Assembly: GCA_005888755.1 (NCBI GenBank)
Contig: VBBQ01000038.1
Location: forward strand, 28,180 to 62,186
Origin: Candidatus Bathyarchaeota archaeon
GTDB lineage: Archaea; Thermoproteota; Bathyarchaeia; 40CM-2-53-6
Length of the DNA: 34,007 bases
Direction: 5' to 3'
In this document: one piece after another, positions 14,191-18,123 of the stretch
Numbering within the stretch: the stretch's first letter is position 1
Layout of the letters: every line of letters begins with the position of its first letter
Position numbers and translations under genes: made by a program
Notes under the pieces: generated by a model
Told to the model about the DNA's origin: nothing
Databases searched by the model: none
The model's input: the letters and a program-made list of their open reading frames with translations, nothing else

Positions 14191-15088
14191 CAGGCTTAGA
14201 GCCCAGTTTTCCAACTTCTACGACCGCGTAGCCAAAACAGAGCTTCAAGGAAAGGATCTAGACAAGGTTCTAGACGAATTCCAACTCTCACTAGTTGAAA
14301 ATGATGTCGCAGTCTCTGTGGCGGACTATGTAACGACTGAATTGAAAGAGAAGCTGAAGGACGTTCAGTTTGCGAGATTCTCCGATCCTAGAGGAAGGGT
14401 CAAGGCGATTCTAGGCGATGTGCTATTGTCAGTTCTAGATAGAGCTGGAAGGCTGGATATTTTCGAGCTAGTTGAAAAGAAGAGGAGCGCCGGAGAGCCA
14501 GCGATAATCGTGTTTGTGGGTATCAACGGAACGGGAAAAACAACAAGCATCGCAAAGCTAGCCCACATTCTCCAGAAAAAAGGCAGAACATGCATACTCG
14601 CCGCCAGCGACACCTACCGCTCGGGCTCAATAGAACAGCTTGAGGAGCATGCGAGAAGAATCGGTGTAAGATTGATCAAACATCAATACGGGGCCGACCC
14701 AGCTGCCGTCGCGTTTGACGCGGTCAACTACGCGCGAGCGCACGGGGTGAACGTGGTTCTGATAGACACCGCGGGACGGATGCAGACAAACCAAAACCTG
14801 TTGGAGGAGATGCGAAAGATCGTCCGAGTCACAAAACCAGATCTGACGATTCTAGTCGTCGATGCTCTCACTGGAAACGATGCAGTAGAACAGGGCAAGG
14901 TCTTTTCCCAAGCGGTCAAGATTGATGGGATAATCCTCGCGAAACTCGACGCCGATGTTAAGGGCGGTAACGCGATATCCTTGTCTTACATAATGGGTCG
15001 GCCTGTGACCATGGTCGGGACAGGGCAGGGATATGACGATCTTGAGACGTTCCAGCCTCAGAGTATCGTAAGCAACCTAGTTGGATGA
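14183..15088 (+). CDS. ftsY: Signal recognition particle receptor FtsY
   Basis: SRP-GTPase at the membrane that receives ribosome-SRP complexes and delivers them to SecYE. 301 aa: N domain about 1-95, then the G domain with GINGTGKTT (113-121), SDTYRSGSIEQLEEHA (142-157), DTAGRM (195-200), AKLDADVKGG (253-262) and GTGQGYDDL (279-287). The guanine-specificity motif is AKLD rather than the usual TKLD. There is no acidic A domain, so the membrane contact relies on the short N-terminal helix. TTG start lies inside pfdA (8-base overlap). In many archaea secE/spt5 come next; here three other genes intervene. Confidence 0.96.
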   Translation: MFDRLRAQFSNFYDRVAKTELQGKDLDKVLDEFQLSLVENDVAVSVADYVTTELKEKLKDVQFARFSDPRGRVKAILGDVLLSVLDRAGRLDIFELVEKKRSAGEPAIIVFVGINGTGKTTSIAKLAHILQKKGRTCILAASDTYRSGSIEQLEEHARRIGVRLIKHQYGADPAAVAFDAVNYARAHGVNVVLIDTAGRMQTNQNLLEEMRKIVRVTKPDLTILVVDALTGNDAVEQGKVFSQAVKIDGIILAKLDADVKGGNAISLSYIMGRPVTMVGTGQGYDDLETFQPQSIVSNLVG

Positions 15089-15149
15089 AGGGAATCTGAC
15101 GTTATCCTAGGAGGGACGTTGTTGACGTAAATCCAGGCGTTTCGCGTGT

Positions 15150-15419
15150 TTATTGTGGGGTTTCCAGGGGAATCGTAAGCTTCTGGTCCAGCTGTTTCTT
15201 GAGGTCATCCATTGTCGGAAACCGGCCTTGTTGGTGCTTCGAGAAGATGAGCTGGCCATCAAGCACAACGTCAAAGACTCCTTTGTCTGCTGGTTTCAGC
15301 GACACCGTCAGTTTCCGGTTGAGCGGCATACCGTAGGTCGCGAGAAGTTGACCGACCATTTCCATCGCCCTCGGCTGATGTCCACACGGCTGGCAGTACG
15401 TTATTTCTAGGTCAACCAT
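15150..15419 (-). CDS. SelW/Rdx-type thioredoxin-fold protein (Cys form)
   Basis: Small redox protein of the SelT/SelW/SelH (Rdx) family. It has the CxxC redox motif YCQPCGHQPRA close to the N-terminus (Cys9 and Cys12 from the ATG), the place where animal SelW has selenocysteine. The C-terminal half GVFDVVLDGQLIFSKHQQGRFP matches the family's substrate-side GxFEVxxxGxLVFSKxxxGRFP. Either the ATG at 15419 or the TTG at 15428 may start it. A minus-strand TATA-like box (15451-15457) would place the transcript start near 15427, so the message is probably leaderless or nearly so. It is divergent from argF. Confidence 0.85.
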   Translation of the reverse strand: MVDLEITYCQPCGHQPRAMEMVGQLLATYGMPLNRKLTVSLKPADKGVFDVVLDGQLIFSKHQQGRFPTMDDLKKQLDQKLTIPLETPQ

Positions 15420-15450
15420 GTTGCTCAATCACTAAATGCAGTCTGCGAGA

Positions 15451-15457
15451 TTTAAAC
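15451..15457 (-). promoter_or_regulatory. TATA-like box for the SelW-like gene
   Basis: Minus strand GGTTTAAATC context; about 25 bases upstream of the TTG/ATG pair at 15428/15419. Assigned by pattern and spacing. Confidence 0.45.
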
Positions 15458-15503
15458 CCGTTTCCACGCTACGAGATCCAACAGATACACGACTAGAGGG
15501 GTT

Positions 15504-15511
15504 CTTATAAG
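15504..15511 (+). promoter_or_regulatory. TATA box for argF
   Basis: Palindromic CTTATAAG about 50 bases upstream of the TTG of argF. It predicts a leader of about 25 bases holding GGAG (15541-15544). Confidence 0.55.
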
Positions 15512-15559
15512 AGAAGAATCCACGACCGACAAACTCTCTCGGAGAACTGTCGCAAAACC

Positions 15560-16483
15560 TTGGCGGGTCTGAAAGGAAGAGACATTCTCTCGTTGGTCGA
15601 ACTATCCCCCAGAGAAATCGATCTGATCCTAAAACGCTCTTCTCTATTGGCACGACGAAGAACGGTTCCCCAAAAGCTGAAGGGAAAAGCCGTCGCCTTG
15701 ATATTTCAGAAACCCTCGACAAGGACCCGGGTTTCCTTCGAAACAGCTGTCGCCCAGCTAGGTGGCCACCCGGTTTATCTCAGCTGGAACGAAATGCAAC
15801 TAGGAAGAGGAGAAACCATCTCGGACACTGCCAAAGTCTTGGACAGGTACGTCAAAGCCATAATGGCCAGGGTCTATTCCCATGACGATCTTGTCGTTCT
15901 CGCCGAGACCGCTGATGCTCCTGTAATCAACGGCCTCTCCGACAAGCACCATCCATGCCAAATACTCGCAGACCTCCTGACGCTGATCCAATACAAGAAG
16001 CGGCTGAAAGGCCTGAAGCTAGCGTACGTGGGCGATGGAAACAATGTTTGCAACAGCCTCTTGATAGGATGCGCCAAGACTGGAGTCAACATTGCGGTCG
16101 CGAGGCCTCCAGGCTATGGTCCGGACCCAGAGGCAGTCAAATATGCTGAAGAAGCAGCTGCAAGGTCTGGAGCATCAATCAGCATTGTTGAGGATCCTAA
16201 GGAAGCGGTAAGGGGAGCGGACGCGGTCTACACTGACACGTTCGTTTCAATGGGTATGGAGAAAGAAAAGGAGACGCGACTATCCGCCTTCATTCCAAAA
16301 TACCAGGTCACCAGGACGCTGCTCTCACACGCGAAGCCTGGGGCGATATTTCTTCACTGCCTTCCTGCTCATAGAGGCGAAGAGGTTACTGCAGACGTCA
16401 TCGATGACGCTCAGTCAGCGGTCTGGGACGAAGCGGAAAACAGATTGCATACCGCCAGAGGACTCCTCTCACTCATTATGTAA
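15560..16483 (+). CDS. argF: Ornithine carbamoyltransferase
   Basis: Makes citrulline from ornithine and carbamoyl phosphate in arginine synthesis (307 aa, normal length). Carbamoyl-phosphate site: STRTR (53-57) and HPCQ (131-134). Ornithine site: DTFVSMG and the HCLPAHRG loop (near 272-279). These separate it from aspartate carbamoyltransferase. Starts at TTG behind its own TATA box. No other arg genes are adjacent. It sits in the middle of what is usually a continuous secretion/ribosomal block, so it is an insertion relative to that order. Confidence 0.95.
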   Translation: MAGLKGRDILSLVELSPREIDLILKRSSLLARRRTVPQKLKGKAVALIFQKPSTRTRVSFETAVAQLGGHPVYLSWNEMQLGRGETISDTAKVLDRYVKAIMARVYSHDDLVVLAETADAPVINGLSDKHHPCQILADLLTLIQYKKRLKGLKLAYVGDGNNVCNSLLIGCAKTGVNIAVARPPGYGPDPEAVKYAEEAAARSGASISIVEDPKEAVRGADAVYTDTFVSMGMEKEKETRLSAFIPKYQVTRTLLSHAKPGAIFLHCLPAHRGEEVTADVIDDAQSAVWDEAENRLHTARGLLSLIM

Positions 16484-16494
16484 TCAACCTTAGA

Positions 16495-17331
16495 ATGGAA
16501 TCCTCCTCGTCGAGACTCGAAATCATTGCATCTCGAGCAGACGCCGCTTCAATCAATATCGCAGAGAACCTGATCCAAGGCTTTCAGTTTTCGAAAACGA
16601 AGCTCTTCGAACGATCAAGTCGTTCTCTATTCCCGCGATAATATCTCTCTCACGATAATCGGCGAGCTCGGAATTTTCGGTAAGCCAGAAAATCATTCCG
16701 CAAGAGGCGACATCTCTAGTATTTGCATCCAAGCACGTAAGCGCGTCCGGAAAGCTTGCTCTAACGGTACATGCCACCGGCAATCCATACCCACGAAGCA
16801 TTGTACGGTGGAAATCCCGAGCAGCTCTCGTTTGTCGATCCCTTGGGAATTATGAGAGCTCTGGGTACTTTGAGAGATGAATCGGCGAAGAAGGGTTGGC
16901 AAATTGAGGTCACAATGGAGGCAACGCATCACGGTCCGACAAGCTTCAAGATTCCGGTTGTGTTCGTTGAAATCGGTAGCGGACCTCTCGAATGGTCGGA
17001 CTCAACACTAGGGGAAAAAGGGGCCAAGGCGGCAATGGCGGCAGCGAATCCACTTAGGTCATCAACTTCCAACGCGGTGGGTTTTGGAGGTACACACTAT
17101 CCAGCCAAACACACCCGAATCTGTCTGGAGGGCAAACGAGCTATCGGACATGTCATATCTAGGCATTCGTGTGAGGGGGGAATATCAAGCACTACACTAG
17201 GACAAGTGTTCGATAAGACGGTCGGCGGATGTGAGACTGCTGTTGTTGACTGGAGGGGATTGAGCGGGAAGCAACGTCATGATCAGCTCTTACTTCTTGA
17301 AGAGTGGAGCATCGAGGTGGAAAGGTGCTAA
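16495..17331 (+). pseudogene. dtdA: D-aminoacyl-tRNA deacylase DtdA/GEK1, three frameshifts
   Basis: The intact enzyme (about 270 aa) hydrolyses D-amino acids from tRNA. The sequence is here but in pieces. Frame 1 from ATG 16495 gives LEIIASRADAASINIAENL and a stop at 16639. The next frame gives VLYSRDNISLTIIGE (from 16622). The third gives ATSLVFASKHVSASGKLA and LTVHATGNP (about 16707-16787). Frame 1 then resumes with HEALYGGNPEQLS and stays open to 17331, with the core EVTMEATHHGPTSF, FVEIGSG, AVGFGGTHYP, GHVISRH and VVDWRG. The shifts lie near 16620, 16660-16700 and 16785, all in the same direction, restoring the original frame. The two C-terminal thirds alone form a 186-codon open frame starting 16771. 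Decay or base errors both fit. Confidence 0.85.
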
Positions 17332-17353
17332 GGACGCCTAGAGACTAGGATAG

Positions 17354-17360
17354 TTAAAAT
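17354..17360 (+). promoter_or_regulatory. TATA-like box for the secE-L12 operon
   Basis: TTAAAAT in the 77-base gap before secE, about 50 bases upstream of its ATG. It would start the secE-spt5-L11-L1-L10-L12 transcript separately from the upstream genes. Confidence 0.5.
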
Positions 17361-17408
17361 AGGGAGGGCCCGGTCCATCGCACTCCAATCCATAGTCGAG
17401 GGCTTGTC

Positions 17409-17612
17409 ATGGGCATTGGAAATTTCCTTCAATCGGCGAGACGTCTATTTCACGTAGCCCAGAAGCCGGACTGGCAAGAAACCAAACTGAACATCAAGAT
17501 CATCTTAATCGGTGTGGCCATAGTTGGTGGCATTGGATTCGTTCTCAGAATCCTCTTCTGGGTGGTTGGACTGTACCAGTTGCCCTCTAGCCAGGTCACT
17601 CCCACTCGGTAG
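17409..17612 (+). CDS. secE: Preprotein translocase SecE/Sec61 gamma
   Basis: Single-span clamp subunit of the SecY translocon (67 aa). An amphipathic N-terminal helix (IGNFLQSARRLFHVAQKPDWQE) lies on the membrane. It is followed by one transmembrane segment (about 28-57, IKIILIGVAIVGGIGFVLRI). The KPDW motif is typical of the family. ATG start. Directly followed by spt5, as in most archaea. Confidence 0.92.
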   Translation: MGIGNFLQSARRLFHVAQKPDWQETKLNIKIILIGVAIVGGIGFVLRILFWVVGLYQLPSSQVTPTR

Positions 17613-17625
17613 TGAGCAAAAGACC

Positions 17626-18123
17626 TTGGCAACCCAGACTCAGAAGACATCGATTTATGCAGTCCGAACGACGAGTGGACAAGAGAGAACAGTGGTTGAC
17701 CTTATGGCTAGCAGGATCCAGCCTAAGAAACTCCCGATCGTAGCGATACTCGCTCCAGAAGTAATCAAAGGCTACATCTTCGTCGAGGCGATGGGGCCAC
17801 ATTTTGTTGATGAGGCAATTGCAGGGACGAGGCACGCTAGAACCAGAACGAAGGGAGTCGTCTCTCTCGCAGCGATCGAACGATTCATAGTAACCAGACC
17901 CGTAATCGAAGAGCTAAGCGTCGGCAACCTCGTGGAGGTCGTTGGTGGACCGTTCAGAGGTCTGAAAGCGAAAATCACACACGTCGACAAAGTGAAACAG
18001 GAAGTCGTCATTGAGCTTCTGGAGGAAGGCTTTGCGACGCTGCCGATAACAGTGCACGCTGACTACGTGAAGCTCGTAAGTAGAGGAGAGGTAGAGGAAG
18101 CTGGCCGACAAGAAAACAGTTGA
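17626..18123 (+). CDS. spt5: Transcription elongation factor Spt5/NusG
   Basis: Binds the RNA polymerase clamp and, with Spt4, raises processivity (165 aa). NGN domain about 8-90 (IYAVRTTSGQERTVVDLMAS, GYIFVEA); KOW domain about 95-150 with VGNLVEVVGGPFRGLKAKI. The TTG at 17626 was chosen because homology starts there; a longer frame runs back into secE but is out of family. The tail overlaps the start of L11 by 23 bases if L11 begins at CTG 18101. Confidence 0.93.
   Translation: MATQTQKTSIYAVRTTSGQERTVVDLMASRIQPKKLPIVAILAPEVIKGYIFVEAMGPHFVDEAIAGTRHARTRTKGVVSLAAIERFIVTRPVIEELSVGNLVEVVGGPFRGLKAKITHVDKVKQEVVIELLEEGFATLPITVHADYVKLVSRGEVEEAGRQENS

Follow-up and report, generated by a model that had tools for sequence, protein, structure and literature searches.

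The question raised by this locus is whether an archaeal gene for a D-aminoacyl-tRNA deacylase, which clears tRNA of amino acids of the wrong handedness, found as pieces in three reading frames, has truly been broken in its lineage, is an intact gene carrying base errors in the contig, or is still turned into protein by less usual means. One paper (PMC3845328) calls the DTD function universal, shared by all three domains, and on that ground essential; in another (PMC10942605), archaeal DTD2 is said to protect from aldehyde-modified D-aminoacyl-tRNAs. The DNA analysed here, called the window, is a stretch of 34,007 nucleotides on contig C39. The draft genome to which it belongs measures 2.01 Mb in 48 contigs, is 95% complete, and has an archaeal gene content, as seen in its archaeal-type SecE, Spt5, prefoldin, and ThrRS editing domain. 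Scaffold N-gaps border the window on both sides (L065:19907-20000 and L066:1-18).

Positions 16495-17331 hold one D-aminoacyl-tRNA deacylase gene (DtdA/DTD2, PF04414) that runs through frames 1, 2, 3, and 1 again, and blastx against intact orthologues recovered its pieces in three frames, on the same strand and in the correct order. Frameshift-aware alignment with four intact orthologues (G016, G020, G002, and G018) placed three +1 shifts, all inside at most 213 nt of the N-terminal third (Table 1), and with these shifts allowed the alignments scored 135-198 points higher than without any shift. The frame of the start codon at 16495 meets stops at 16639, 16681, 16717, 16738, and 16762, so that no single frame spans the gene, and translation from the native start halts at the first of these, after 48 codons. 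The shifts are absent from all four orthologues, each of which is read in one frame; the window gene is thus broken relative to its intact orthologues and lacks the single full-length frame of about 270 residues. Besides the shifts, there is no nonsense mutation in the spliced coding content. The same sense of the three shifts is unremarkable, given that three unbiased single-base indels would agree by chance in one case out of four. The preliminary description of this DNA had recognised the DtdA identity, three same-direction frameshifts, a clean remainder of 186 codons, and intact neighbouring genes, and all of this held up, the flanking genes being full length in comparisons with up to seven relatives; the tight clustering of the shifts also stood, but their span, given there as about 170 bases, has to be widened to the limit stated above.

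Table 1. Features of the dtdA locus in the window (all on the plus strand)
Feature	Positions	Strand	Evidence or remark
Ornithine carbamoyltransferase, upstream neighbour, intact	15560..16483	+	PF00185/PF02729, TIGR00658 above cut-off; full length vs 7 relatives
DtdA N-terminal piece, frame 1 (MESSSSRLEIIASRADAASINIAENLI...)	16495..16638	+	Translation, blastx, frameshift-aware alignment; stop at 16639
First +1 shift interval, frame 1 to 2, position loose	16576..16630	+	Frameshift-aware alignment, four orthologues
DtdA piece, frame 2 (DQVVLYSRDNISLTIIGELGIFGKPE)	16613..16690	+	Translation, blastx, frameshift-aware alignment
Second +1 shift interval, frame 2 to 3, at AAAA run	16688..16697	+	Frameshift-aware alignment
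DtdA piece, frame 3 (IIPQEATSLVFASKHVSASGKLALTVHATGN)	16692..16784	+	Translation, blastx, alignment; partial PF04414, 25.3 bits
Third +1 shift, frame 3 to 1	16785..16788	+	Identical site vs all four orthologues
DtdA C-terminal part, open 186 codons; homology from ~16789	16771..17331	+	PF04414; PDB 2gfq, 1yqe
SecE / Sec61-gamma, downstream neighbour, intact	17409..17612	+	PF00584, TIGR00327
Transcription elongation factor Spt5 (NusG-like), intact	17626..18123	+	TIGR00405, PF03439

The C-terminal open reading frame matches PF04414 with 143.7 bits (cut-off 33.6), and its closest solved structures are 2gfq and 1yqe. The window gene shares with DTD2 (DtdA, GEK1; PF04414; 2gfq PH0006 and 1yqe AF0625) the sequence family, the motifs EATHHGPT, FVEIGS, and GFGGTHY..KHT, and the position beside secE-spt5 that DTD2 has in relatives, whereas, unlike in archaeal and plant DTD2, its frame is discontinuous, being interrupted by the three +1 shifts of the N-terminal third. 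When the pieces are joined, 68 of the 71 conserved columns that could be tested have a residue also found in intact orthologues, and the three never-seen residues are comparable with what intact orthologues themselves show. Judged by its sequence, the window gene is a member of DtdA/DTD2 by descent, with a deacylase activity that is only presumptive.

In ten close relatives (G001, G004, G005, G006, G007, G010, G013, G014, G015, and G017), with 84-90% DNA identity nearby, the same locus lies between ornithine carbamoyltransferase and SecE, and only the ends of dtdA are left there, still recognisable within the 124-173 bp that separate the carbamoyltransferase stop from secE. According to the best single-deletion fit for each relative, 752-802 bp of the dtdA locus are missing: 753 bp in G001, G005, G007, G015, and G017, 752 bp in G006, 773 bp in G010, 795 bp in G004, and 802 bp in G013 and G014. 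These fall into about four junction groups, counting G006 and G010 as one because they may share one deletion followed by trimming, and the groups match the flanking-gene tree, in which the deep branches are weak. The 753-bp group retains 5' sequence absent in the G006 group, which in turn retains 3' sequence absent in the former, and this reciprocal retention favours separate deletions behind the scar groups, at least as far as the junctions can be read. A single ancestral deletion with scars trimmed later is not favoured, since it would need the gene to be regained by the window lineage, which is nested in the clade (on those weak deep branches).

Across the genus, only three of 18 genomes have a DtdA match, namely the window genome, with the broken gene, G016, where it is fused to SecE, and G002, where it is gapped; G012 keeps a C-terminal remnant of 31 residues. 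The G002 copy is apparently open, with a gap of two N near its end. In G016 (L112:1648-2793, C113), dtdA is missing its stop and final residues, and its frame continues directly into secE, giving an apparent DtdA-SecE frame of 382 codons without an obvious separate secE start, which is either a real fusion or an assembly artefact. Within the family, the copies in the three other genera that were sampled look intact, and in the class DtdA is kept in 119 of the 128 genomes that are at least 90% complete. One class-level relative, G042 (100% complete; L109, C44:103508-104114), has a DtdA frameshifted in its C-terminal part. Separately, identity between the window and its sister G014 is about 93%, but around the genes for the SRP GTPase, carbamoyltransferase, and SecE it drops to 70-84% before rising again (window 14200-18000, L074); the dip suggests that homologous recombination may have taken place in G014 across the dtdA locus.

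Taken with this pattern, the broken frame of the window gene is quite probably that of a real and young DTD2 pseudogene, one case within a repeated loss of the gene throughout the genus, as far as comparison of genomes can tell. On this reading, same-sense shifts of one base at three sites in the N-terminal third would end translation after 48 codons, in a genus that would be losing dtdA repeatedly, with most of the gene deleted in ten close relatives at about four junctions. The shifts would then be real and the product inactive, and selection for chiral proofreading would be relaxed, or else the need would be met by an unrecognised enzyme. The preliminary description had left loss, base-calling indels, and unusual decoding side by side, and the comparison with relatives that it proposed moves the balance, given that the scars found in ten of them favour real loss and that decoding is disfavoured for the reasons given further below.

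The age of the break can be bounded. Simulations of neutral change over the conserved columns rejected, at 5%, any drift beyond about 0.05 substitutions per site. The branch leading to the window genome after it parted from G004, its closest relative at this locus, measures 0.073 for the SecE-Spt5-L11 region and 0.099 for the carbamoyltransferase gene. Since the drift limit lies below this branch length, the break, if real, is younger than the split, and would be recent and independent of the deletion in G004; the conserved family residues retained in the spliced protein also speak for young breaks.

The rival that survives best, although we consider it unlikely, is an assembly or base-calling error, whereby dtdA would be intact and the contig would hold three extra bases. 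Real lesions and three assembly indels would appear identical in the contig sequence, every conserved motif survives across the three frames, and nonsense mutations beyond the shifts are lacking, as they would be in a functional gene with errors. Besides, one of the shifts sits at an AAAA run, and the lesions are three insertions and no deletion, unlike the usual prokaryotic pseudogene, since prokaryotic pseudogenes are usually deletion-rich. Elsewhere on the contig, a TMEM175-like channel gene likewise carries a single-base indel specific to this genome, in this case a deletion near its N-terminus (L065 about 17262, window -2739). Against such an error, the orthologous genes over about 70 kb of contig are nearly all full length, which makes three independent errors in 213 nt improbable; the scaffold N-gaps point to what would be a short-read assembly, where indel errors are rare; and the mistakes would have had to strike exactly the gene that is deleted in close relatives. 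Compared with the sister G014, 37 of 195 open reading frames of the window genome show an indel or stop, and the opposite comparison gives 33 of 183. Most of these lesions sit at frame ends or are compensated wobbles of the alignment, and on inspection a few per cent of the frames are internally broken in either genome; with such a similar low rate in the sister, the window genome is not unusually error-ridden. Three +1 indels just upstream of the window were considered as a matching pattern and dropped, being apparently non-coding and beside a scaffold gap. A contig scan with the DtdA C-terminal part found one distant relative only, and no second assembly of the same species.

Much less probable still is that the 186 C-terminal codons, read from the ATG at 16771, give a functional product by themselves. 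Their frame is open and retains all the C-terminal motifs, but about 95 N-terminal residues would be missing, including the conserved SKH..LTVH..GN segment, a ribosome-binding motif is not evident on inspection of the sequence just upstream of that ATG, and the same part is deleted in relatives. The production of a full-length DtdA through three programmed +1 frameshifts or altered decoding is hardly credible: three same-sense shifts do bring the frame back, the coding content is conserved, and, as in programmed +1 frameshift genes such as prfB, the protein carries on in another frame of the same strand, but unlike those genes the window dtdA has three shifts, absent from the four intact orthologues and so not conserved as shift sites, the remaining genes of the contig are single-frame and colinear with relatives, and to our knowledge there is no precedent for a short gene with three programmed shifts.

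The preliminary description had allowed for the replacement of a lost DtdA by another deacylase, which finds no support among the known families. DTD1 (PF02580) was absent from the window genome and 60 relatives, with control genomes duly matched, the PF04414 profile search of the window genome gave a single locus in two pieces and hence no second DtdA, and the TatD family, or DTD3 (PF01026), had no match in the window genome. In the rest of its family the TatD matches are weak and partial, or there are none, and most order-level relatives have full ones. The window genome does contain the ThrRS editing domain, but the role described for this domain is the removal of L-serine (PMC3845328).

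Taken alone, the pseudogene is ordinary, sharing with common prokaryotic pseudogenes and lineage-specific losses a broken frame, deletion scars in relatives, and relaxed selection. It departs from ordinary gene loss in that a gene kept almost universally by the class shows several deletions within one genus that look separate, and the loss of all known free-standing deacylases over most of the genus is moderately interesting. In the literature searched, the coverage of which is incomplete, we found no report of DTD2 loss within an archaeal genus. We tentatively propose, as a possibility rather than as the expected outcome, that the genus is largely without a known free-standing D-aminoacyl-tRNA deacylase, either because it has an unrecognised replacement or because proofreading is dispensable there. 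The repeated loss of DTD2 without a known replacement would be a natural experiment on when this checkpoint is dispensable, and a genus losing DTD2 would be a place to seek a new deacylase.
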